This document shows positions 24,752-44,071 of a stretch of 64,000 nucleotides of DNA, piece after piece (position 1 is the stretch's first letter; each line of letters starts with the position of its first letter). Made by a program: the position numbers and the translations under genes. The stretch is taken from positions 16,968,260 through 17,032,259 of the forward strand of contig OZ035998.1 of NCBI GenBank assembly GCA_964035015.1, in the 5' to 3' direction. A model generated the notes under the pieces. The model was not told the DNA's origin. It worked only from the letters and a program-made list of their open reading frames with translations, and did not search any database. This DNA comes from Corallium rubrum (taxonomy: Eukaryota > Cnidaria > Anthozoa > Scleralcyonacea > Coralliidae).

Positions 24752-27700
24752 TCAATGGTTTGATGAGTGAAATGCACCACATGTGATTTGTGCCAAATGA
24801 TCAAGCCTCTTTTCTTCTTGAAGCCTAAACTGTAAATTTGATGATGATTTTAAGCTTGTCAATCTTTCATAAGTCATTGGTTCAATAACACAAGAGGACA
24901 GTGTTTTTGCTCTACTGATTGCAACATAAGAGACTCCAGCAGTTCTCTCCGATTTACCAATATCTATCCAAGCCTTTGATAAAGTGAGTCCTTGGCTCTT
25001 GTGTATTGTTAGAGCCCAAGCAAGTCTGAGAGGTAGTTGTTGCCTCTCATGGAAACCATGTTCTGTCTGTGAGGAGACAGTGATTGGGCATATTGGGACA
25101 CATGATGGTTGGGTTTCATTAAATGAAGGACCTCTGTAGTTCTCAAACTGAACAATTACAGCAACAGGTAAGGCTGGAGGCTGATGGTTATTGTCAAAGA
25201 TGAAATCAATGATTGTTCCAGTAGCCCCATTGCAGAGACCAACACTTGACCATAAATTCATGGTTAGCATGACTCTAGCACCCTTTGCTAGAAAAATCAT
25301 AGGTTCTAATCCAGACATATCTTCTGAAGAGATTTTTTTTGCAATTGTAGATGAATGGCGAGCATTAATATGAGCAACTGGGTGCTCCAGTTTAGTCAGT
25401 TGTTCATGATTGTAATTCGCAACTTGTTCATTGCTGTAGAAGAGTCTGGTTGAATTTTCAAATTCAGACAAATTTGGGATGTTTGATGGCTGACGAGTCA
25501 AAAGTAATTTCCAGTCATCAACTGTTGACTCAGCTTTACGAAGTCGCAACAACAAATCTCTGAAGTTAACCTGTTCAGAACTCATACCTTGTACTCTCTG
25601 ATTTACAGTGAGCTTAACAACCTTATCAAACATTCTGTAAGTTTGATAGCCTTGTTCACCATCAGCACTGGATGGTTTAGCGTGATAAAGAGGCTTATCT
25701 GCTACGGGTGGTAACTGACCTGGGTCACCAATTAAAATCAGAGACTTTCCTCCAAGAACTTTGTTATGAAATCCTGTTGCTTGTTTGCAACGCCTATCTA
25801 TCCAGCCAAAAGCAACTTGACCAAGCATAGAATATTCATCAATAAGAACGTAATCAACTCCATTTAAGCTTTCTTGCAGTCTACACAGACTTTGACCTGC
25901 TAGATCTTTTCTACCCCGTGAACCAATGGGCAATTTCAACAACGAGTGTACAGTGATACCTCTTATACTATACGCAGCTTTTCCAGTTGTTGCAGTAACT
26001 ACACATTTACCTCGTAAAAAGTTACGAATAGCATTGATAAGGTAACTTTTACCAGTACCAGCAACACCAATAATAATAAGGCATAATGGTTCTTTTTCTG
26101 ATGAAATACATGTATCATCAAAATGTGACTTGACAATATTATAAGCAAGTCCTTGCATTTCACTGAAACTGTTTATATGTACAACTTCATACTGCTCATT
26201 AACAACATGATTATCCTTTTTTGTTTTTATCCATGTCGGCATTTCATAAATTTGTTGTTCAGAATACTGAGCTCTGTCTTGGTGCCAGTCATGTGTTAAC
26301 TCTGATGTTTGTTCAGAGTTGTCAAATGGAGTGTGGAGTTCGGATAAGATCATCCATTCCTCGCGGGTATTGCCTTGTTCTTCACAAGGTTCATCTTCTG
26401 GTTCTTGTTGACTCTGAATAACAGTCTGTAGTTTGTCAAACCAGTCAGGAACATTGGTTTGTCCATAAGGTGTCTGCAAGAATTCTTGCCAATGATTAGT
26501 TAAAATCTCATCAGTTGGTTCTTGGTCACCCCATGCATTGTTTTGGGTTATTTTCCATGGTTTATACCTCAGAAGCTGATACTTACAATAAAGACCAAAA
26601 TTTGGTCCTTTAGGATTAGAAGAATAAGTTGGAAATATTCTTGGAACAACATTCTCTGGTAGTTTTCTTAGCTCATTCTTAACAACTTGGTACATTGTAG
26701 TAAACTGAACAAAATTAATATTCATAATACCATGTGAACTGTCATACTGTTGACGGTTAGCATATACATCAAGAAGTGAATTATCAGTGCAAGTATCACC
26801 ATCTTCATTAGATTCATTGTCGCGTACTCTACGCGAACCGTTAAGACTCACTGGAATCACTTTAAAAGATGAGCTATGAAGTTTTAGTGACAACAAATGA
26901 TGCATTGTTTCTTGAGCTGCATAATCTCTTTCACCGAGAGTTTTCATTACTACCTTCTTGATAGCCCTGTGAGGGTTACTATTATTGTCAACATTCTGGA
27001 CAATAGAATTAAATGCCTGTTTCAGCATAGGTGACCTTGGTTCACCTTTAGCAGCATATTTAGTGAGATATTCAACACAAGCATAGTGATCAATAACAAC
27101 TTGAATATCACAGTTAGCTCTCCAACCTTGTAGCTGGAGTTGTTGTTGGTTGTTTAACCTCGAATCATTTCTCTTAGTTACAATCTTTGCTCTATATTGC
27201 ACATTATCACCTTTACTGTGAATTTTTTCAAATTCTAATCTTGTCTGAGGACAGTGATCAAATGGAAAATGAAATCTACATTTCAATTCTGATTCACTCG
27301 ACTTTTTTCTAAGACAGTAGTTTGTGCTACAACGAGTGTGTCGTTGAACCATATTTAAAAGATCTACATAATCAGATTCTACTTCAAACTCAGGAATGTC
27401 ATTATGACGTTTCTGACATGGATGGACTTGGGGCCTTATCCACATGTCCTCATCTGGTGAATTTGGGTTTACAGTCGACAATAACCAATCAACATACTGA
27501 CATGCTGTGTTAGCAGCTTTTTTACCAGCTTTAATATCCTGGTCTAGTTCTGTAGTATTAGGACAATCATTCTCATTCTTAAATGTCTGAGCTAAGAACC
27601 CTTTCAAAGCAGTCTGAGTAAGTTGACACAACCCTGGGTCATTATTTAGTTTAGCAGTACCATGACAATGGATACTACCTCTACCTTGATATTCATATCT

Positions 27701-28915
27701 GAACCAGTGCCACTTTGCACCAAGAGTATCATAAAGCCAGTGCTTAGCAAAGCTTTCTAGCCTTTGTGTGAAAAACCAATCCACAATATGAGGATTGTTA
27801 ATGACATTTTGTCGCCTAACCTCACTGGTGGCATTACGAGTATTTGCTCCAAACAGAGCATGTAATTCAGGCCAATGCATATCTGCTGATGAAAAAGTAA
27901 AGAACAACGTTGGTGCTCCAACATTAGTAATAATAGCTTTAAGTTCCTCTCTCACTTTATTCCAATAAGCATTTGTACCAGCAATATTGCCAACATACCT
28001 GGACACTTTAGACATGAATACAGCTGAGTTGTTACTTGAAGCCATTTCACGCAGCTCGTCAAGAGTAAGATGAGCTTCACCTGGATTTTGTTTTAGGAAT
28101 ATTCCACTTTGTTGCAAAATGCACTTTCTCTGAATCATGTTGAAAGCCCAGTATGAAAATCTGGGGTGGTTAGCAAAACGATACACCCATTTGCAATCAA
28201 TAATTTCAGCAAATTTCAAAAGATGCTTAATTCTTTCTTGAAGAGGCACATCTCTCAAGAGACTCTTATTGGTAGGATCACCTTTCCCATCAGGGAATAA
28301 TGTTGGAAAAGCCATAGTGGCCAGATGTGATATCTGATATTCATTTAATGGCTCATTTTCAACAGTGGGCCATGCCATTGGTTCATTTGCAGAAATTTGA
28401 TTTCTAACTGCTTCTATTTCTTGCTCTTGTTGTTCACCAACAGGTAAGAAACTACTCATCTCAGGGTTATCAGTAGGTGGGCCTAAATCAGGCATAGCAC
28501 TATCATCTGAGACTATTTCATCCTCAGTCTCAACAGTCATGAGATCTGCTGGAACACCATTTTCAGGTAAAGAGTTTAATACATCTACATTAATTTTCAA
28601 TTCAGAATAATGAGGATTATTATGTATCAGCCACAATAATGCATTGTGTACTTTTTCTCTCCTCACAGTCACATCTTTGAATGTGTTATTTCTACCTTTG
28701 GCCTTGACAATAATCACAGATAATTCTTTCGGATATCTCGGCAATGATGTTGCCAGTTCTTTCACATTTTGTGGCAAGTTAATACAATGCCCTGAGTAAC
28801 CTCTTTGTCCACCTGGTTTAATATAAACTCTCATAATGGGGAGAGCTCGAGCAATCAACATTTCCTCAACTTGAGTCAAACCATGTAACTCATGTGGTAC
28901 TGGTGAAGGAATCAT
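24752..28915 (-). CDS. Helitron Rep/helicase (rolling-circle replication initiator plus Pif1-type helicase)
   Basis: An open frame of 1387 residues with no stop over 4.1 kb. It begins [20 protein letters not shown], but the LINE shows that translation originally came through from upstream, so this Met is probably internal. The HUH nuclease has RGSIHCHG (~residue 415, two metal-binding His around Cys) and [11 protein letters not shown] (~615) with the spaced catalytic Tyr and Lys. The SF1B Pif1-like helicase has Walker [10 protein letters not shown] (~952), Walker B LIDEYSM (~1027), [27 protein letters not shown] and [10 protein letters not shown] (~1330). HUH cleaves and joins single-stranded transposon ends while the helicase unwinds. 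All motifs look intact, which suggests a young element even though it is now disconnected from its N-terminal part. Confidence 0.95.
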
Positions 28916-28944
28916 CGAATTTTCAAATGAGAACTTTTTAGGAA

Positions 28945-30276
28945 ACTTGATGAGAGTGGTTCATACAAACCAGTATGGCGCTATCCCTAAGTCGTCGACG
29001 ACGCATGCGTTACTAAGCATGATTCATGATTGGTCAGCAGGAACTGACGGCAACGGCGCAGCGGTTAGAGCCATTTTGTTTGATTACCGTAAAGCCTTTG
29101 ATTTCATTGATCATAATATTTTAGTACACAAGTTACGTAGGTTAATACTGCCACATAGTATTATTAATTGGATTACGGACTTCCTACGTGACCGGTCACA
29201 GAGAATCAAACTCGCGAATAATTGTTATTCTGAGTGGGGATCAGTACCATCTGGGGTTCCCCAGGGAACCAAATTAGGGCCTTGGCTATTCTTAATAATG
29301 ATCAACGACCTGGTTATTCCAAGCACTAGCGTATGGAAATTTGTCGATGATACGACAGTTTCAGAGATCATAAATAAGAATCAAGCGAGTGAAGCGCAAT
29401 CAATAGCCGACGATGTAGTACAATGGTCTGAAATAAATAGAATGCAGCTTAATGCTGATAAATGCAAAGAATTACGTATTTCCTTCGCTAAACATCACCG
29501 GGAATTTAGTCCCATTATAGTGAATAGTAAGTGTCTTGATGTCGTAACAAGTGTAAAGTTATTAGGTTTAACCATCAGTAATGATCTTACATGGAATGTT
29601 CATATAAACGATCTAGTTAAGAAGGCATCGAAACGTCTTTACTTCTTAGTCCAGCTTAAGAGGGCTAACGTATTACCTCATGATCTTGTTCTATTCTATA
29701 TTGCTTGTATAAGATCAATTTTAGATTACGCAGTTCCGGTATTCTACTATTCCTTGCCAAATTACCTTGGCAAAGAGCTAGAAAGAATTCAAAAACGCGC
29801 CCTTGGTATTATCTTTCCAAATTTAGAGTATCACAAATCCTTAGAAATCTTACACATAGAGAGATTATCTAATCATCATAAGAATATTTGTATAAAAATG
29901 TTCAACGAAATTGCGAATGATGTAGATCACAATATTCACCACCTAATACCAGACATTAGGAGTTCAAGCTACAATATTAGAAAGATTAGGAAGTTCGCAG
30001 TTCCACAGTACAAGACGAACCGTTTTGCAAATTCGTTTTTTATTGCTTCATGTCAAAACATTTCAGTTTAGAACTTTTAACATTGCTCCAATTTGTATGC
30101 TTCTAATAGTTTGTAAACATTATGACTTAACTTTAGGATTTAATATTGTAATACATTATAATCATTATTATTAGAATTTGTTAGTAGTATTATTGTCATT
30201 TAAATATTTTTATCATGTAAATACATAATTCAGCCTTTGGCTGCCAGTATTTATTTAAATAAACTATCTATCTATC
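28945..30276 (+). mobile_element. 5'-truncated LINE inserted in the Helitron coding region
   Basis: A 374-residue open frame (28947-30071) covers reverse transcriptase from the fingers onward: QYGAIPKSSTTHAL, FDYRKAFDFIDH, PSGVPQGTKLGPWLFL, the active site KFVDDTT (Asp-Asp retained) and a thumb with KLLGLTISNDLTWNVHI. No endonuclease is present. The 3' UTR ends AATAAACTATCTATCTATCT, a short tandem tail typical of CR1-like LINEs in place of poly-A. It separates the Helitron zinc-motif segment (to ~30277) from the Rep/helicase start. It lies opposite in strand to the Helitron and is apparently recent, as its frame is open. Confidence 0.9.
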
Positions 30277-31596
30277 TCTAGAACATCGTGAGCATACATA
30301 ATTATTGGGTGAACGTGGTTTAGATTTCAGTGGCCATGCCTCTTGACAAATTGTGCATTGACTGATGGAATATTCAACAGATTTATGAAATTTAGCAATT
30401 TTGGATTTTGCCCATTTTTGTTCTTGAATACTACCATTTTCTTTAATGTCAAATTCTTTCAAATAATCCTTCTGATTGATAACTTTATTGGTATTACTTT
30501 GTTTAGGTCTGGCACATCTTCTAATTTCAGATTTGTCTGAACACTTTTCGTTCAGCTTAACATTTGCAAGTTGAGCTTGCTTTTCAATAGTAGTCTCCTC
30601 TGCTCGTTTTCTTTTTCTATATTTTCTAGCATTTTCAAGTCTAGTTTGTGTTTCATTTTCAGTTTCTGCTGCTCGTTTAGTTTTCTGAAAATTTCTAGCA
30701 TTTTCAAGTCTAGTTTGTTTCTCATGTTCAGTTTCTACTGCTTGTTTAGTTTTCTGATATTTTCTATCATTTTCAAGTCTAGTTTGTTTCTCATTTTCAG
30801 TTTCTACCACTCGTTTGGTTTTCTGATATTTTCTAGCATTTTCTAAAATTCTAGTTTGTTTCTCACTATGAGTACTTGTACTTTGGACTAATGAAGGATT
30901 AGAGCCTTCTTGCATTATCTCAGAATTTGTTAACTGAACAGTTATCCCTTTAACTTCAAAAGGTGTTGCACTGCTTCGAGGTACAGTATTTTGGAAATAA
31001 ATCACCACATTGTTTATACTTCCAAGAGAAACTAATACACATTTTCCAAATGGATGTGGCATACCATATAAATCTCTTGAATGAGAGTCAAAAATTTTGA
31101 AGTTTCCTTCAGAAGTCCTGAAAATTGCAACCGTGTTGCAATCAATAGTCAATAGGCAATGTTGATAACTTAAATGAGAATCTAAAAACAGATTATTTAA
31201 AGCATTTTCCAAAGAATAATATGGTAGATTGTTAGTTGCCATAAACAAATCACCAGCAAATGGGTCACTGTATTGCAAGTAACACACTTTATTAGAAACT
31301 GCAACCATTTCTGGCACGTCAGTTAGAAGCAAGAATGTTTTATTAATAGAATTGCTTATACAAGTATAAAGGCTGTTTCCAGCACACAATATGTCATTCA
31401 AGCATGATGAATCCCATGCATTGATATTAATTGTTATTTGACTATGTATTACTGCAGTCAAAGACATGGCTACACATTGTTTACCAGCATTTTGTCTAAA
31501 CTTTTTTATATTACCTTGGCTAAAATCAGCATATATTGTTTTAGTAGGGTCAACCAAATCATATACTGTTGGTCCAGGATTTTCTTCGAACATCAT
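30268..31596 (-). CDS. Helitron N-terminal protein: protease-like domain, 23-residue repeats, zinc motif
   Basis: 442 residues. The frame closes at a stop in the LINE tail, so this is the upstream part of the Helitron polyprotein. Residues ~1-215 look like a small cysteine-peptidase fold: GKQC (Cys41) near the start and FDSHSR (Asp170, His172) later. That Cys plus Asp-x-His layout is known in OTU/papain-like and herpesvirus-tegument-type deubiquitinases; the assignment is inference. Residues ~246-345 hold four to five 23-residue Lys/Arg/Glu-rich units (EKQTRLENARKYQKTK type), matching the period of STPR DNA-binding repeats. The C-terminus has CTICQEAWPL and VCSRCSRDR, a four-Cys zinc motif that normally leads straight into the Helitron core. 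The start is uncertain: EENPGP follows at once, resembling a 2A peptide end. Confidence 0.8.
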   Translation of the reverse strand: MMFEENPGPTVYDLVDPTKTIYADFSQGNIKKFRQNAGKQCVAMSLTAVIHSQITININAWDSSCLNDILCAGNSLYTCISNSINKTFLLLTDVPEMVAVSNKVCYLQYSDPFAGDLFMATNNLPYYSLENALNNLFLDSHLSYQHCLLTIDCNTVAIFRTSEGNFKIFDSHSRDLYGMPHPFGKCVLVSLGSINNVVIYFQNTVPRSSATPFEVKGITVQLTNSEIMQEGSNPSLVQSTSTHSEKQTRILENARKYQKTKRVVETENEKQTRLENDRKYQKTKQAVETEHEKQTRLENARNFQKTKRAAETENETQTRLENARKYRKRKRAEETTIEKQAQLANVKLNEKCSDKSEIRRCARPKQSNTNKVINQKDYLKEFDIKENGSIQEQKWAKSKIAKFHKSVEYSISQCTICQEAWPLKSKPRSPNNYVCSRCSRDR

Positions 31597-35372: not shown

Positions 35373-35381
35373 TCGATAATG
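35373..35381. repeat. MULE target-site duplication, left
   Basis: TCGATAATG, identical to 44063-44071. Nine bases is the classic Mutator-superfamily length. Confidence 0.9.
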
Positions 35382-35529
35382 GAGTTTGAGTAACTGTCGC
35401 GGGTCGCGGGTCGCGGGTAAGAAGTCGCGGGTCGCGGGTAAAAAGTCGCGGGTCGCGGGTAAGAAGTCGCGGGTTGGAAAAAGATTAAAATTTACGACCA
35501 TAGAAACAGTTCAGCGTCGGCCGCGGTCT

Positions 35530-35610
35530 TCGTAAACAAAACTCTTGGTTGGGTACTCGTCTCTCTATTTTTTCAGGCTGACGAGTACCCAACCAAGAGT
35601 TTTGTTTACG
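35530..35610. repeat. Perfect ~31-bp-arm hairpin next to the left MULE end
   Basis: CGTAAACAAAACTCTTGG... at 35530-35560 is inverted at 35579-35610. Followed by a tandem duplication of ~43 bp (ATGTCATCAGTACTGGCGGC core) at 35672-35760. Confidence 0.85.
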
Positions 35611-36168
35611 ACCATAATTTGCTTCTAGGATTAAACAGCTTACCGTATATTTGCACGCTGCGAGCCTTGCTAAAATATGTCATCAGTACTGGCGGCATCG
35701 AAAAGCACATGGTTTAAAATATGTCATCAGTACTGGCGGCATCGAAAAGCACATGGTTTAAACCACAGGGAGGTTGGCTATGATGCATGTTGTTCAGTTT
35801 GATCTTTCTGATTGGGTAAACTTTTTTTTTACTAGCCGTTTCCCACACGTTTTTCCAAAACAACAATTCCTTTTAAATAATTATTTGAAACATTTGAAAT
35901 GCTCCAAGTTATCGATTGGGACGTTTTTTCCAGATAAATAACCAGAGCTAAAAACAATACGTGGCCAAGCTGGCTAACACCTTTTCAGAGTTCTAACACT
36001 GAAATATGTCACATCACTAATGCCGTCATCTCAATCTGTATATGATACTTTCATCGTATTACAATTGTCTCATATCTTTCTTGATACTGAGTCACAAGGT
36101 TCACAGTGCTCAACTTTCCTTAAACAGCTTACTTTAGTGCTTGTGTTGGAGATATTTCTGTTTGCGCA

Positions 36169-36333
36169 ATGATGTCGAAACGTCTTTATTCAGAAGTGGT
36201 TAGTAAGGGTAGTTCAAGTGAGGACGACTCAGAAATGAGGACGCCAAAATCGGGGTGTCTTGTCAATTGGTTGCGAGAGTATCAAGATGACGAAGAACAA
36301 GTTGCTCTTGAGAAGGCTTTGGAATTGAGTAGG
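36169..36333 (+). CDS. MULE transposase gene, exon 1 (UIM-like helix)
   Basis: ATGATG start, 55 codons, donor AGTAGG before GTAAGA (phase 0). Residues ~40-54 read DDEEQVALEKALELS: an acidic cluster then L-x-x-A-L-x-x-S, the ubiquitin-interacting motif pattern. The upstream part is Ser/Asp/Glu-rich. The 133-bp intron that follows ends CAATCCTAG. Confidence 0.8.
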
Positions 36334-36467
36334 GTAAGATTCGTTACGGCTTTCTTATATTTCTATTATCGACGGAAATACAATTAGAGAAAGAAATTCA
36401 CCAATTTATTATGTCGTCAAATATGAACCAATATTATTATAACACTTTAGTCTTTACTCAATCCTAG

Positions 36468-36542
36468 GGTTCTTTTTCAACAAACACGGTTGGCCTGGCA
36501 GAGCAGCCGTCTACGAGTGGAACTTCTACTGTCATTGACATT
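36468..36542 (+). CDS. MULE transposase gene, exon 2
   Basis: 25 codons, phase 0 at both ends (AATCCTAG acceptor, ATT before GTGAGT). It ends STVIDI, joining to SDGSS in exon 3 to make V-I-D-I-S-D, a SUMO-interaction-type motif (hydrophobic core, then acidic). Confidence 0.8.
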
Positions 36543-36646
36543 GTGAGTTATTTGAACGTTTGTATATAGAAATAGCGGAATTACTGTCAATTAACTTTAT
36601 TTATATATATATATATATCGTCTAAATTGCTCTATATTATTTATAG

Positions 36647-36751
36647 AGTGATGGTAGTTCAACGACGACGGAGGGAAGTCCGTCTATCTTTCGCGCTTTG
36701 GAAATTGAGGATGCCGATGAACAGTTAAAACCACGGGCACAGTTTGGGCAT
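36647..36751 (+). CDS. MULE transposase gene, exon 3
   Basis: 35 codons, phase 0 (acceptor TTATTTATAG, donor CAT before GTAAGT). Encodes SDGSSTTTEGSPSIFRALEI and an acidic stretch. The next intron (36752-39101) contains a hAT-type MITE, a hairpin and a Helitron terminus. Confidence 0.8.
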
Positions 36752-37067
36752 GTAAGTAAAACACGAATTACTATATATATATTGATACTGTAACGCAATC
36801 GTTAGTTAAGGCCTTTTTTATGAATATCTAGCTTGTGTTAAGTAAAGGTTCTTCTACGTTTACCCTCTCGTAATTTTCTTCATACTCTGAAATGACTCTG
36901 GGGACGAGAAATTCGACGAAAAGCACGTGGGGGAATTATTTTGGCAAATTTAATATGGCCGTTTTCCTTGATCATGAAAAAATGGGCGGAGAAATAATGC
37001 ACATGCCAGATTCCCCGGGTAATGGCCCTATACTCGGGCTTATAGTTGTCTTTTCAAAATGTCTTTG

Positions 37068-37564
37068 CAGAGGCGGACTGGCCCACCGGGATCCCGGGAA
37101 ATTTCCCGGTGCGCCCCCTTGCTTTCGGTTTCAGGCGCCCCCACAAAGACAATTAACAAAATACAGCTCAACGTAAACATGAAATACAGTTGTTACTAGT
37201 TGCATTGCTTGTCTTTTCTTTGTTATTCACTGTATAAGATGGAACCCAAGTGATTTTTCGGGTATATAATAAATTTTATAACTCTAAGACTAAGAGTAGT
37301 TGAATCATGGAACAGTAACAACAAAATATGTGCATACACAATACATAAAATCGTTCTTAAAATTCTTGATGCCCCCTCCCAAAATCGAGGAAATACAATT
37401 TCAGAGGCTCAAAATTTAAAAAATTTCCTAGTGACCGGAATGCCACGGACGTACAGAGGCGCACTCCTCGGTCGGGTACCTTAGAACATTCGGCTTTGCA
37501 CTTAAATCAGGCGCCCCTTTCATATACTTTCCCGGTAATTTTTCTGGTGCCAGTCCGCCCCTGC
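37068..37564. mobile_element. hAT-type MITE in intron 3 of the MULE gene
   Basis: Ends CAGAGGCGGACTGGCCC and its near-inverse ending GGTGCCAGTCCGCCCCTG, flanked by TGTCTTTG (37060-37067) and TGTCTTTC (37565-37572), an 8-bp duplication with one mismatch as expected for hAT. A GATCCCGGGAAATTTCCCGG palindrome is inside. No coding support. Confidence 0.65.
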
Positions 37565-38407
37565 TGTCTTTCTACTATACATTCTACGTAGGACGTATGT
37601 GCGATATATAATGCATTAAGAAGAATATTTCGGATGCTTTTAAGTTAATAAAATATCTGTCGTGACCCTTTACTTTTAAGCGGCCGTGTTGCAGATTTTC
37701 CACTTATATTATTCTTCTGCATTTCGTGTCAGGCGATTTTGCAAAAATTTAAAGCCCCGAAATTTTCCCCCCATTATAGAGGTGCCATGGCTAACAGGCG
37801 TTTGAGTTCAGAACAGCATTAAACAGTGATTAATTAGATTACAATGCGTCTGTATGCCATAAGTGGGGCCACTTTGACACATCGTATTAAAGAACGAAAA
37901 TGGGGGGAAATAATAAGCAGCAAATTGGCCAATCATGATCTTGGCACAAAAGACAATGCAATTTTCAGAAGCGTGAAATTTGAATAAGTTTTCAACAACT
38001 ATTGGTAGTCACACACGCAAAAATTTGTTCGCCAATATGTCGCTTACAGAAACTTTCTATTTTTGTGCTGTAATGCATGCATGTGATTAGTTATATTGTT
38101 GAGCACGTGACGCCATTAACAGAAGGCTCACTGTAAAAGCGGCACATAGAGTTGTAACTATTCAATTATTACTTAGTGGCTCCCTTCTGTTTTTTTGAAA
38201 GATTTAACATTTTGAAGAAATATATGTTACTTGTTAGAAAAGAGAAATTGTGTGATGTTTCTTAAGCAATGCTATGACAGTGGAAATTTGTTCTCAAAAG
38301 TGCCTATCGTTGCTATGGCAAACAATGACGTTTCGATATGGCCGATCTTTTGCCTTTTAGCGTACTTGAATACAATTTGGTGACTCCCATTTTATTTCAA
38401 TGTTTTC

Positions 38408-38585
38408 TTATAGCATAAGTAATAATTTGAACAATTTAAAAAAATTCTGTAGAGCTAAATTTTTAAAAATTAAAAAGTATGATTATTCTAAATAATTATT
38501 TTTTGGCTTTACAGAAAATTTAAAATTGTTCAAATTATTACTTATGCTACTGGAACTTACTATCGCAAGTGAAGTGCTGCCTCAA
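38408..38585. mobile_element. Hairpin MITE abutting a Helitron 3' terminus remnant
   Basis: Arms TAGCATAAGTAATAATTTG (~38412) and CAAATTATTACTTATGCTA (to 38551) form a hairpin element. Directly after it, 38553-38585 matches 23397-23428 (ACTATCGCAAGTGAAGTGCT core), the candidate Helitron end, here with CCAG instead of CTAG. Confidence 0.6.
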
Positions 38586-39101
38586 AAGCTAAAAACATTG
38601 CCGCCATTGTAAATAAAACGCGCAATATATTATTACAATGTAATATATATCGTGGCGTTGTAATCAAATAAAAAGCGCAAAGACTGTTTATATATGTAGG
38701 CTGTTACTATTACATTCCCAACTTTTGTATGTTTTGAATAGTTTACCCAATTGGCAATTGACTGTCTATGTACCCAACAAGATAACTCGCAAGCCAAGGT
38801 CTAAGCAAATAAGCCAATATTTGAGCTGAGCATGATGAAAATTTGTCATGTAAACATTTTGTTCATGCCTGAGAAATATTATAATGTATTATACAAAAAA
38901 ATATAAGTCCTAAGGGAAGGAGAAACACGGCAAATTGCCCTCGTGTGTTTGCAAGTTTAAAAAATCCTATACCCCTGGCGCTTCTTTATAGATGCATTCA
39001 ATGGGGCTGTTGTCGGTCAAACCAATGTATGTAATACATTGTGAAACTTTTCATATATAACTCAGGTACAGTGACACAGGCTAATTATCGGTTTTAAACA
39101 G

Positions 39102-39197
39102 GTAAAAAAAGAACCGCATTTCAACTCGTGGGATGACGAGGAGTATAATCCAGGTAGACCGGTGCTACCAACCACGCATGGTTCTTTTTGGAAAAAG
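39102..39197 (+). CDS. MULE transposase gene, exon 4 (sumoylation consensus)
   Basis: 32 codons, phase 0 (acceptor TTTTAAACAG, donor AAAAAG before GTAATT). It opens VKKEPHFNSWDDEEYNPG. V-K-K-E matches the psi-K-x-E sumoylation consensus and is followed by an acidic patch (negatively charged type). Confidence 0.8.
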
Positions 39198-39591
39198 GTA
39201 ATTTGTTAAAAGAAATAAACATTTTTCATTGTTAATTCTCATTTGTTGCCACATACATAATCCTGACATAAAGTTAATGGTCTATACAGAGGGATAAATT
39301 ACTCGGAAAATCTTTGCACACTTCCACAAATAAAATATCCTAAATGCCAAAAATTCCGAAAAATCCCGAAAAATCTCAAAATCTCCCCCAAATCAAAATG
39401 ATATTTCTCAAAATCCCGCAAAATTGAGAAATCTATACAAAACTTAGTTACATTGATCAAGCTTGTCAGCAATCTGATGTCTACACTTCAGCCCAGTCAA
39501 TAATTGTACTTAATAGTTCCCATAATATCTAAAGCGGGAATTTTTATATAGACTATAATAGTGTAGGTGATAATTGTATATTTCTCCATAG

Positions 39592-39632
39592 GTTGATGTC
39601 GTAGATTTAACATCTGACACTTCGCCAATAAG
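39592..39632 (+). CDS. MULE transposase gene, exon 5 (SIM)
   Basis: 41 nt, phase 0 in, phase 2 out. Encodes VDVVDLTSDTSPI plus two bases of an Arg codon completed at 40180. V-V-D-L-T-S-D is a near-canonical SUMO-interaction motif. Donor AATAAG before GTAATG, acceptor TCATCTTAG. Confidence 0.8.
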
Positions 39633-39866
39633 GTAATGCCTTTACATTTGGTTTTCATTACAGTTTACAACGTAAGCACATTCGTAAGGGTAAGCATGAG
39701 AACGAAAAGTTTTGGTAACGCAAATATAATGCTTGCGTTCATTGCCGTATTTAGGCGTCTATCAAGAGAAAACCGTATCAAGACACCGTATCAAGGTGTC
39801 TATCCAGGTGCATTGTCTGAGATTGTTACCATGCTTACCGTGCTTGTGTTATCGAATGTTAAGGGA

Positions 39867-39870
<4 letters not shown>

Positions 39871-39925
<55 letters not shown>

Positions 39926-39931
39926 GGGGGG
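39871..39931. repeat. (GT)n then poly-G in intron 5
   Basis: Dinucleotide run followed by a G-tract. The intervening 39198-39591 intron has AAATCCCGAAAAATC low-complexity repeats. Confidence 0.95.
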
Positions 39932-40179
39932 GATATTACTACGAAATCTGTCCCACGGAAGGGCAGATTTCAAGGAATATCGCCCAAAGGGGGTAGCTGT
40001 GCCAACCGATAAGTTACAAGTTGAACCCTTACGCTTACGCTATAACGAAATCTATGCTTTATAGTAGGTACTCGAAATTTGAGTGGTTATTTTCAGCAAT
40101 ATCAAAAATCTAAAATCTTTGCAATATTGCCAAACCTTAGCATTATTAGAAAACTAAGTGAGTCCACATTTCATCTTAG

Positions 40180-42742
40180 GCCAATAAAGCGACAAAGGAG
40201 AAGACGTGTGAGTTCTAGCAGTTCATCTGGTCACGAATCTGTAAGCGAACGTCAGCACCCCAAAAGGCAAAGAAAATGTAGTCCTGAGATGTGGAAAACC
40301 GTCGACGACGAAAAAGTGGACGAGTTACCACATGGAATCGACGGGTTGTCACGCTATTCAATCAAGAATATCGTTGACGTCAAAGCTCGACGGAAAGCCT
40401 TGTCCTCTGACGGTAGGCGTTGGTCGAAAGATTCGTCGACGAGTTGGGCTGAATATGGCGAAATGCGCTTCGCAAATTGTCGTGGTTCCCATGTTTGCAA
40501 GAACGAAACATGTCCTTACAAAATTGAGTACGGTGTTGTGAACAAGCTACTGTTCACTAAAAAAAACAAGTGTACTGCCTGTGGAGTAACTGCAGACTTC
40601 GTTGTTTGTCCAGCTAGGCGTTATACTCATGTCAAAGGACCAAAATTAAACGTTTTCCACTGTGGTCTCCACACCTGTCCTGTGCGTGCTAAACAACCAG
40701 ATAAGCCGGTGGGCAATGTTAGAGATTTATTAAGAAAAGATCCAACCCTGAAGCCTTCAGAAGTTCAATCTGCACTACTTGTGTCATCACTGCGTGCAGG
40801 CGAATCATGGGAAAAGATCGAGAAACAAGCTAATCAACTTGTAGACAAGAATTGGATTACCAACCAGAAGCGAGCAGTAAGACGAGATATCAATCCTGTA
40901 GGAGAAAACTTTGAGGGACTGGTTACCTTCAAACATCATTGCGACAAGAATGACCCCTTTTACGTGTATAAGATTAACGACACAAGAGGCAACCCTGATT
41001 CTCCATCGTTTGTGTTTAAGACAAGTAAAATTAAATTATTAATGGCAAACAACATGAACAAAGATGGCGATCATTTCTTGAATAATGAATATTGTTTTTT
41101 TGACGGGAAAAAGAAACGCTGCAGAAATTACACTACACTTACAGCAAGTGTTTACCACCCGCTACTGAAGAAGCAAATTCCTTTGGCAATAATGGAAACA
41201 GAGGCAGAAGATGCGCGTTGTGTAACATTGTTTTGGACGTTATTCCAAGAAGCACTTCGCAAGGCAACATCTAATAACGGCAGCATTTTTAATCCAACGG
41301 GGTGGAGCACCGATATGGCTGGGGCCAATCTAGTTGGGATAAGAGATGTGTTCGGAAGCGAGGCGCTAAAACGGGTGAAGACCTGTGAATTCCATTTCAA
41401 GCAAAATCGCAACAAGAAGGCCAGACAACTCGACGATGAAAGTTCGCAAGAATTTAAAGACAAGTGTGAAGCATTGTTGGTTGCGCAGACTGTTAACGGC
41501 TATACAGCTGCAATGAACGATTTGATAAAATTTGTTAAGGACAGGCCTGACCGTGAATATTTAGACTCGTGGTTGAAGTGGTGGGATAACCGAAGGGAGT
41601 TCATTTTCAATGCGTTTGCCCCTTCAGATGGACCGAAAATGAATCAGGCTGAAGTGATTCATGCTGGTTGGGCTCATAGAGATCGGAGCAATCTGTCTCT
41701 GCTCGAAGCTGCCCATATGGATTCACGGGACAGTGTTCTATTAGAAGCACAACTGAGACAATATAAAGAGGGAACGTTGTCTGGTGGTACTGGCCCTTCC
41801 TTTGCACAACGGAATTTCAGACGTGAACTTGACGAGGCAGCGCGTTATGGGAGAGAGATAAATGAGCTTGGTATTGGCAACACGGTAGATGGTGAATCTG
41901 GACATCGTCCTCCTGAGCAGCGCAAAAGAAAAAAGGGCAAAGGAAAATCAAAGCAAAAAGAAAAGAGAGGAGTACCTCCTGCTTCGACTTCCTCTCAAAG
42001 TGCACCGAACAGAGTTCCTGCTTCGACTTCCTCTCAAAGTGCACTCAAAAGGGTTCCTGCCTCGACTTCCTCTCAAAGTGCCCCGACACCAGCTTTCAAT
42101 AGCCTTTCCCACGGCTACACTCAATCAGAAACTGTGCCTGCTAGGTCAACCATTCGGCAACCCTCGGAATTTTCAGTAACTGAACATTATCATCCTTTTT
42201 ATACTTTCCCGCCATCTCGTTTCCCGCCAGCAGAGATACGTAATTCTCTCACCATCCCAAATGATCCAATGGTCATGTCAAATGCCAATTATGGCAATTT
42301 TACCGTAAGATCAATGTTTCCACAACCACCCACTAGAACTTACATTCCTTCTCAGCTTCCCTCGACCTCTACGTCACCAACGCCAATATGGCATTCAGGA
42401 ATGTCGCCGAACCACTATGAACTTGTAATGTTACCAGCAAATGTTCGAAAATGTTATGGATGCGGAAGCGATTTTGTGGATAAATATCGACATCAACCGT
42501 ATAACGTTGTTGTGAAGCACGTTGATAGACGTATATTGCGAAAGGACCCTGTTACGGGATCCTTTATTTATAGCGCAGACTTTACTAACACGTACTATCA
42601 TCCCAGTTTAGACCATATAAGACGTAAAAACCCGCTTTTTACCGGTTTAGTGCGAATGTCGTCCAACCTCTACGCATCTCTTAGTGCTTTACAAAAACAA
42701 GTGTTAGAAAGCAACGATTTGAACACTCAGATTGTTGGATAG
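40180..42742 (+). CDS. MULE transposase gene, exon 6 (DDE transposase, zinc motifs)
   Basis: 853 codons; the spliced protein is ~1014 residues. No ATG opens the exon, supporting the upstream exons. Order: basic clusters RPIKRQRRRR and PKRQRK (nuclear import); a Cys/His cluster with CKNETC, CTACG, then VFHCGLHTC, similar in spacing to the WRKY/GCM1-type DNA-binding fingers of MULEs; then the transposase core. Candidate catalytic acids are Asp in CFFDGK, Asp in GWSTDMAG and Glu in MNQAEVIHAGW, with the MULE CEFHFKQN signature (C-x2-H) between the last two. A low-complexity linker with three PASTSSQSA repeats follows, then a C-terminal CYGCGSDF zinc motif domain. The predicted role is to bind the GTCGCGGGT-rich ends and cut and paste the element. 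Polyadenylation signals (AATAAA) follow at ~42971 and ~43047. Confidence 0.92.
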
Positions 42743-43887
42743 TTGTATTGTGGCTTGGCTCAGTGTATATCGAGTTCGCCTTATCTAAACGCTGCAATTT
42801 CACTTTTGCCAAATTTTTGGAAAAAACCCAACAAATTTCGCTGTTTTACAATCCTTAGAACTTACTCTTAAAAATAGAAAATTATTAAAATTTAGGGAAA
42901 ATTACCAATGTTTGAAGTGTTGTAGCTAGTATTTGAGTTGTTTCAGTTATTCGTTCTTGGGTTATGGATGAATAAAATTATTGACGACGTGCTGCGCGCC
43001 TCCATGCGGGACGTAAAATAATATGTTTCGTTAGAGAATATTAGTATAAATAAATAAATGCAACAACCCCTCGTCCACTTCATGCATTTTTGTAACACTC
43101 CCAACTGCTTTTACATGCTATTTTAATACATACAATATCCCCACCCCCGGTTAAAATTTAATTTATCATCTTCGTTCACCTTTTTACTTACCCGTTCGGA
43201 AGGTTGGTGCAAGCTGTAGCCCGGTGGGGGCCTGGGGCGAGTAGCGGTACTTGGATCCAGGTTAAGATCCATCCATGCAGGATCTTGAGCTGACCACCCC
43301 CACTCGGTATGGCTTGCACCGATCACACCAATTAATTGGTGGAAGTATTCCACTTACCTCTTTGATTGAAGGGAGGGACGGTGGGAATATCTGAGTTACT
43401 CTGACTCCAACACTGCGTCTGACAGCTAGCCCGTTAACGCGGCAATGACGACTCTCAACTAGTGCCAGTCTTCCAGGCCGCCAACCCCAAGCTTGCACCA
43501 CGCGCGGTTACCTAGCTGTTAACCTTGGTTATTGCATAACTTTATTTAATATTTTAATTTAATGAAGTTCAATACATATTATTTATTTACAAAGAATGGT
43601 ATACCATTAACAAAATTCAAGATTCCCTCAACAATGGTCACCTGAAACCTAGGAATTGATTTTATGGAGGGGGGAAACTGGGGAACCTGGAGAAAAACCC
43701 TCGGAGCACAGGAGAGATCAATATACTAAACTCTACTCACATGGTTAGACCAGTAGCTAAATATACGGTAAGCTGTTTAATCCTAAAAGCAAACTAAGTC
43801 GTAACAGCGTATGCAATTGTTAGAACAGCTAACTATATATAATAATTATTGATATTTTATTTTTCATTATAATATATTACTAATACA
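42743..43887. other. MULE 3' internal non-coding region
   Basis: 3' UTR followed by repeat-like sequence at 43190-43510 and 43640-43740. No second gene was recognised between the transposase and the right terminal repeat. Confidence 0.5.
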
Positions 43888-44062
43888 TTTTTAATCTTTT
43901 TTTCCGACCCGCGACTTTTTACCCGCGACCCGCGACTTTTCACCCGCGACCCGCGACTTTTTACCCGCGACCCGCGACTTTTCACCCGCGACCCGCGACC
44001 TTTTACCCGCGACCCGCGACTTCCTACCCGCGACCCGCGACCCGCGACAGTTACTCAAACTC

Positions 44063-44071
44063 TCGATAATG
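44063..44071. repeat. MULE target-site duplication, right
   Basis: TCGATAATG, identical to the left copy, immediately after the terminal CAAACTC. Confidence 0.9.

Follow-up and report, generated by a model that had tools for sequence, protein, structure and literature searches.

A Mutator-like transposase gene of Corallium rubrum with a spliced N-terminus carrying SUMO-interacting and ubiquitin-interacting-like motifs

A 64,000-nucleotide stretch of the Corallium rubrum genome (contig OZ035998.1, positions 16,968,260 to 17,032,259 of the forward strand; hereafter the window) holds a cut-and-paste transposon of the Mutator-like element (MULE) type, and we examined the gene of its transposase. 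In front of the large exon with the catalytic core lie five short exons, which encode a helix resembling a ubiquitin-interacting motif (UIM) followed by two SUMO-interacting motifs (SIMs). Exons and motifs recur in relatives with strongly diverged cores, and exon 1 is under purifying selection. This arrangement suggests that the N-terminus may read small protein modifiers on host proteins.

The six exons splice into an open frame of 1014 amino acids, 161 of them from exons 1–5. All five introns are GT/AG, with phases 0, 0, 0, 0 and 2, and the phase 2 intron completes an Arg codon (AG, then G). A preliminary description of the window had joined exons 1–5 to exon 6 in just this way, which the spliced frame confirms, and the motifs it listed (UIM-like helix, VIDI-SD, VKKE, VVDLTSD and a basic stretch) are all where it had placed them. 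We regard the following gene structure as virtually certain.

36169-36333, + strand: exon 1, from splice sites and frame; conserved LYSxVV..., NWLxxYQ and the UIM-like helix
36286-36333, + strand: UIM-like helix DDEEQVALEKALELSR, the last part of exon 1; its core, L-x-x-A-L-x-x-S, is kept in relatives
36468-36542, + strand: exon 2, from splice sites and frame; ends in VIDI, the first SIM core (36531-36542)
36647-36751, + strand: exon 3; its opening SDGSS gives the first SIM an acidic/Ser tail, and TTEGSPSI, also conserved, comes next
39102-39197, + strand: exon 4; conserved FxSWDDEEYxPGxPVLP...HGSFWKK, with the unconserved VKKE at its start
39592-39632, + strand: exon 5; VVDLTSD, the second SIM, then SPIR; phase 2 into exon 6
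40180-42742, + strand: exon 6; open frame with basic stretch, Cys/His-rich region, DDE core and C-terminal Cys motif

The basic stretch where exon 6 begins, PIKRQRRRR, may direct the protein to the nucleus. Among the best conserved parts of the N-terminus is FxSWDDEEYxPGxPVLPxxHGSFWKK of exon 4, which matches no motif that we could name. A (GT)27 tract lies in intron 5 (39869-39923), and in the C-terminal portion of exon 6 a 39-bp unit, encoding 13 aa in frame, is repeated in tandem (41977-42086).

Relatives were sought in the 474-Mb assembly, where L numbers denote genomic loci and P numbers protein records, and the N-terminal 328 residues were compared with 14 loci using an in-house spliced aligner. 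L021, L023 and L024, which are near-identical to the window copy and were fetched across the whole gene, have the same five introns. More distant are L027, L030 and the L026/L031/L032 group, with 45-48% identity to the window in the exon-6 protein; for these, spliced alignment recovers exons 1–4 in order with introns 1–3 in phase 0. L036, with a core piece 65% identical, has exons 3–5 with phases 0, 0 and 2. Intron 4 is in phase 0 in L026 and L036, and a phase-2 intron 5 is found in L036 and, by eye, in L025; exon 5 equivalents were located in L036 by spliced alignment and in L025, L034 and L028 by eye. For the remaining aligned loci the aligner yielded no exon 1; a pattern scan gave possible equivalents with a donor in L025 (ESEGMEIALAASLE followed by GTAAGC) and in L028/L029 (NEEEAIKIAIKRSMDEDVE followed by GTAAGC). 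Since the exon order and intron phases are repeated in relatives with 45-48% identical cores, exons 1–5 do not look like a product of chance, as the preliminary description had argued from the motifs, and their membership of the transposase gene is supported. Many copies are decayed, L026 being broken in exon 2 and L031, L032 and L035 in exon 4. The comparison also has points that weigh against this assignment: the aligner assigns phase 1 instead of 0 to intron 4 of L027 and L030; L030 has a stop upstream of the Met used; exon 4 lies in two frames in L031, L032 and L035; and none of these three or L026 is wholly intact over exons 1–4.

Searched for across the genome, exon 1 was found at 29 places and exon 4 at 18. 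We fetched 17 of the 29 exon-1 places and, once copies near-identical to the window or to L026 had been set aside, compared 11 sequences. Exon 1 is under purifying selection: the ratio of non-synonymous to synonymous substitution (dN/dS) was 0.09-0.48, below 1 in every one of the 26 pairs (of 55) with a finite dS, the values being rough for so short an exon. Residues 1-161 found nothing at E <=10 in a set of 5.8 billion proteins, probably because records of the family are mostly single-exon predictions without the N-terminus. A protein relative from the octocoral Paramuricea clavata shows 78% identity along one third of the protein, and further ones come from Stylophora and Actinostola. Two of the copies have a history of their own. 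L024 (C51:6384800-6394799) differs from the window at 102 bases of exon 6 (51 synonymous and 38 non-synonymous codons), despite exons 1–5 and introns that are almost identical to the window's, a pattern that suggests purifying selection and a mosaic origin from two subfamilies. At G000:C37:12236851-12237015 an exon 1 that is 98% identical lies ~7 kb upstream of exon 4 of L022; the distance probably reflects a longer intron or an insertion in that copy.

The core of the helix that ends exon 1, [LF]xxA[LI]xxS, is kept by all 11 genomic exon-1 sequences compared and by Stylophora P0042, and in all 12 there are 3-4 acidic residues among the eight before it, so that each has the parts of a UIM (an acidic stretch, a hydrophobic-x-x-Ala and a Ser four after the Ala). 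Among 13 N-termini the core occurs in five, as against 0.2-2.7% of shuffles; several of the other eight are pieces without exon 1. A 25-aa helix profile built from 10 sequences and run against 177,635 PDB sequences gave as its top match 2klz, the tandem UIMs of ataxin-3 (E 0.0049, profile positions 10-25 of 25), and AN1-type zinc finger protein 2B, which we take to carry a UIM, appeared at E 0.93. Three column-shuffled profiles had best E-values of 0.078, 0.29 and 0.67, with no UIM among them. In Pfam, UIM was the sole family matched by the 25-aa pieces (3 of 10 members, best E 0.015). These resemblances lead us to call the helix UIM-like.

Against this label stand several results. The 2klz E-value is the sum of two stretches with E 8-12 each alone, and the second PDB match, cytochrome c oxidase subunit 13 (E 0.057), falls on the NWLxxYQ part. 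One set of shuffled Pfam controls gave a stray match at E 0.026, the other none. The window helix itself has no Pfam match at E <=10, and as a single sequence it found only a designed protein in the PDB (E 1.8), an uninformative result. In textbook UIMs the acidic residues sit about two residues nearer the core than they do here. Retention of the motif is also partly a matter of ascertainment, the exon-1 set having been found by exon-1 similarity (the exons of L041-L047 were located by a pattern that contains the helix core itself), and 17 of the 29 exon-1 places were read, three of the others matching only to before or within the helix.

It could therefore be asked whether the SIMs are real while the exon-1 helix, NWLxxYQxExExxALxKALxLSK, serves dimerisation or partner binding and owes its likeness to a UIM to convergence. 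In favour of this, the conserved unit exceeds a UIM in length, its NWLxxYQ extension is unaccounted for by the UIM label, and the PF02809 gathering cut-off of 21 bits was reached by no scanned member (the best of 12 N-terminal or exon-1 pieces scored 13.7 bits; Vps27, the positive control, scored 33.8 and passed). Convergence is harder to reconcile with the invariant positions of the 25-aa unit (Q, E, A, S), which take in the Ala and Ser of the UIM, or with the unbiased profile search, which puts UIMs first. In addition, the helices of L025 (ESEGMEIALAASLE) and L028 (EEEAIKIAIKRSMDED) are nearer the UIM consensus by eye and end at a donor, though homology to window exon 1 is weak for L025 (tblastn E 3.6) and putative for L028, and the lack of a Pfam UIM match in both speaks against the UIM label. 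We consider convergence somewhat unlikely. What stands of the UIM in the preliminary description is the recurring core and the ranking of UIMs first by the profile; the unreached Pfam cut-off and the unexplained NWLxxYQ go against it, and we would put the chance that the helix binds ubiquitin at about even.

The SIMs are on firmer ground. VIDI-SD, split across exons 2 and 3, and VVDLTSD in exon 5 both have an aliphatic core with an acidic/Ser flank, and a strict SIM, by at least one of two patterns, is present in 10 of 13 N-termini, as against 0.3-7% of shuffles for the first pattern and 0.02-4% for the second. P0005, P0007 and P0015, the three N-termini without one, were probably predicted as single exons and so miss the N-terminal ones. 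The exon-2 equivalents of L027, L030, L031 and L032 have a SIM (the L026 row in these counts uses exon 2 of its sisters, i.e., the L031/L032 form), and Stylophora P0042 has a UIM-like helix and then a SIM. As read by eye, L034 and L025 have SIM peptides in short AG/GT-edged stretches, and that of L025 shares a phase-2 end with window exon 5; L028 has VIDISSSESEDE upstream of its core. On a more distant branch, P0049 and L034 share a further SIM (DVITISDDEKS and DIVLVSDSEQE). Two observations count against the motifs: a broad SIM pattern is present in 38% of shuffled window N-termini, and the exon-2 SIM is kept in only two of the four copies of the L026/L031/L032/L035 group, a small deletion breaking the exon 2 frame in L026 and L035 being without the SIM. 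The preliminary description would have been undone by relatives that lack or scramble the motifs; for the most part the SIMs recur in the same order after the helix, and the loss or breakage in L026 and L035 is where its expectation fails. We think it likely that these SIMs bind SUMO, probably from within a disordered N-terminal region.

The preliminary description was silent on the SPxR site that comes after the second SIM. SPx[K/R] is a phosphorylation site of the cyclin-dependent kinase (CDK) type, and a SIM closely followed by [ST]Px[KR] occurs in five of nine N-termini (window VVDLTSDTSPIR, L027, L036, P0042 and P0050; shuffle P <0.002 each), the L026 form, L030, P0048 and P0049 being without it. 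L025 (VVVDLSSPSPKK) and L034 (VIVVSSDSDASPKK), both found by eye, also fit. As the pattern was picked after some of the cases had been seen, we treat this association as a lead. A proposed SUMO-acceptor site, VKKE in exon 4, did not hold up. The psi-K-x-E pattern is present in 3 of 13 N-termini, at differing places, and we reject it as a conserved feature; since 15-63% of shuffles contain it, VKKE alone is no evidence.

The use of this N-terminus that we favour, giving it as a whole an even chance, is docking on tagged host proteins. The five short exons would supply the transposase with a reader of small protein modifiers, and the SIMs, less surely the UIM-like helix, would tether the transposase, or its complex bound to the terminal inverted repeats (TIRs), to SUMOylated or ubiquitylated host chromatin proteins such as repair, replication or silencing factors. 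Phosphorylation next to a SIM could possibly tune this docking across the cell cycle, and transposition may benefit from it. Recruitment to SUMO- or ubiquitin-marked proteins is plausible from the motifs, and the marked chromatin or repair foci proposed in the preliminary description may be where it takes place; that docking is the main use of the N-terminus we rate a little below even.

A more ambitious form of the docking idea takes RAP80 as its model, a host repair adaptor with a SIM and tandem canonical UIMs in a short disordered stretch. The elements would then be an ancient anthozoan MULE lineage with a dual SUMO and ubiquitin reader and CDK-type sites beside the SIMs. During part of the cell cycle the reader would guide the transposase to chromatin under repair or replication that bears both marks, as a transposon counterpart of RAP80-type readers used for target choice or repair-coupled transposition. 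We find this reading fairly unlikely. RAP80 has tandem canonical UIMs as opposed to one sub-threshold helix, and motif order and spacing differ.

SUMO touches transposition elsewhere. HMGXB4, a host factor of Sleeping Beauty, is regulated by SUMOylation (PMC10138897), phosphorylation of residues flanking a SIM core strengthens binding, and a review of SIMs cites work in which a SIM-type interaction of Piwi is required for transposon silencing (PMC12751080). Given these links, a transposase SIM could act in targeting or in turnover, or it could interfere with SUMO-based silencing. If turnover or self-control were the purpose, the SIMs and helix would recruit SUMO-targeted ubiquitin ligases or proteasome shuttles, limiting the level or activity of the transposase and its timing in the cell cycle. 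SUMO-targeted ubiquitin ligases do use SIMs (PMC6695498), and the succession of SIM and SPx[K/R] in five of nine N-termini would suit cell-cycle control, but the same data fit docking equally well, and we hold turnover to be quite unlikely as the explanation.

MULEs are known to capture pieces of genes (PMC8277862), and exons 1–5 could on that account be a recent Pack-MULE-type capture of host gene exons. Among the cores listed, none is near 16 of the 29 exon-1 places, and these could include an unlinked parent, which made us raise our estimate for capture slightly. It remains very improbable: a listed core is found within ~16 kb at 15 of the 18 exon-4 places and at 13 of the 29 for exon 1, and the exons recur in Stylophora as well as in the lineages with 45-48% identical cores. 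Five of those 16 places were part-read, and the longest, L041 (C8:1326500-1327700, 1.2 kb), has an exon-3-like piece on the opposite strand and looks like a decayed or rearranged copy of the element; it and the places on C23, C28 and C32 are exon-1-like, 69-70% identical to the window, with no listed core nearby. Finally, each motif is short taken alone and could be chance in non-coding DNA mistaken for an exon, a reading that we dismiss almost entirely given the conserved exons and phases, the selection on exon 1 and a scan for UIM core plus donor that matched nothing in 200 kb of reverse strand and just once across 109.6 kb of the window beyond the element, with two forward-strand matches other than the exon-1 places, both within the L036/L037 core.

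In a tree of 68 rows, each half of a clade of 57 rows contains UIM+SIM members, also when the less certain L025 and L028 are set aside, and SIM-only rows are found outside the clade too. The clade has support of 86/58 and each half 100/99, the midpoint root serving for drawing only. From the presence of UIM+SIM rows in both halves we infer that the module was ancestral to the family, with losses.

The preliminary description said nothing of the ends of the element, its TIRs and target site duplications (TSDs). Together with the catalytic core they are as follows.

41102-41653, + strand: catalytic core; D 41102, D 41312, CxxH 41384-41395, W 41582, E 41651 (first bases of codons)
35382-44062: MULE-type element, the stretch common to near-identical copies
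35373-35381, no strand: left TSD TCGATAATG, same letters as 44063-44071
44063-44071, no strand: right TSD TCGATAATG, perfect 9-bp match to the left one
35382-35474, + strand: left TIR, 93 nt, 96% complementary to 43970-44062
43970-44062, - strand: right TIR, from its complementarity to the left repeat

In the core alignment D308, D378, C402 and H405 are present in 43 of 43 rows and W468 in 41, as is E491, the remaining two rows being gapped there. This is the MULE layout, a DDE triad with CxxH and W between the second D and E, and the same layout as D214, D283, H307, W401 and E419 of Muta1, a MULE of Aedes aegypti in which these residues were tested by mutagenesis (PMC5225508). The 9-bp TSDs of the window copy and L021 fall within the 8-11 bp of MULE/Mutator elements, and the TIRs likewise agree. 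The Pfam model speaks against membership: PF10551 (MULE) gave no match at E <=10 for exon 6 and seven relatives, and exon 6 does not appear among the genome's PF10551 matches, of which 150 out of 223 candidates were scored. Alignment by hhalign of the core to PF10551-positive stretches of the same genome gave P 0.026 (L049, in the right register), 0.25 (L048) and 0.32 (both together), which is weak support at best, and a PDB profile search with the core found no transposase. Exon 6 matched no other Pfam family of note either, and P0049 was the only protein with a SWIM finger in the Pfam scan (17.7 bits, cut-off 19.6). With TSDs, TIRs and DDE layout present and PF10551 unmatched, we class the transposase as MULE-type by anatomy.

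Part of the TIRs is made up of a 21-bp tandem repeat (GTCGCGGGTCGCGGGTAAGAA), a candidate binding site for the transposase. L021 is flanked on either side by ACTGAAAGT, a 9-bp TSD unlike that of the window; both TSD-flanked ends were found for these two copies, and one end each in the L022, L023 and L024 stretches. Over the 482 bases of exons 1–5, L021 differs from the window at one base and L023 and L024 at none. The element appears to be a complete cut-and-paste anthozoan transposon that has probably moved recently. Immediately inside the left TIR, two perfectly matching 32-bp inverted arms enclose an 18-bp loop (35530-35611), and a 44-bp perfect tandem duplication (35671-35762) lies 5′ of exon 1. 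Elsewhere in the window, at 24752-31596, a minus-strand Helitron protein (Helitron_like_N, PIF1) adjoins a minus-strand open reading frame (30268-31596) that matches a herpesvirus tegument N-terminal region and STPR repeats, with a plus-strand reverse transcriptase frame between them. The tegument region is presumably a deubiquitinase-type domain, and this stretch is possibly a Helitron carrying its own deubiquitinase-like gene.

To judge by sequence, a MULE-type transposase with a conserved SIM and UIM-like N-terminus appears to be new. The preliminary description knew of no described MULE with this arrangement, and our literature search, which left many subscription papers outside, found no paper joining a transposase with both hyphenated motif names; those joining it with one of the two names are, by their titles, on other subjects. 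Ataxin-3, the top PDB match, is a different protein with two UIMs. Kaonashi (KI-MULE) elements, reportedly plant MULEs with a captured ULP protease gene, also tie a MULE to the SUMO pathway, but their link is the captured plant gene, whereas here it is the N-terminus of the transposase. The Ovarian Tumour module is a deubiquitinase-type fold. It is tabled, with zinc fingers, SET and other modules, in a 2019 survey of MULE clades, which has a Ghost cnidarian subgroup among its cnidarian MULEs and lists MuDR-6_HM with the Ovarian Tumour module (PMC6446971). By its description MuDR-6_HM has an enzyme-type module, which sets it apart from the SIM and UIM-like reader motifs of the window, and the words 'SUMO' and 'ubiquitin' are absent from the main text of that survey (PMC6446971). 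Muta1, with a transposase of 504 aa, is described with zinc and DDE domains and, in that description, no SIM/UIM region (PMC5225508).

Gene models of the element that begin at the large exon lose 161 of the 1014 aa (~16%), the very part considered here. Little is settled about how DNA transposases sense the state of their host and select the time and site of cutting. With a conserved SIM and UIM-like front in a family that has near-identical, TSD-flanked copies, the idea that transposons read SUMO and ubiquitin marks would be directly testable by short peptides and point mutants.

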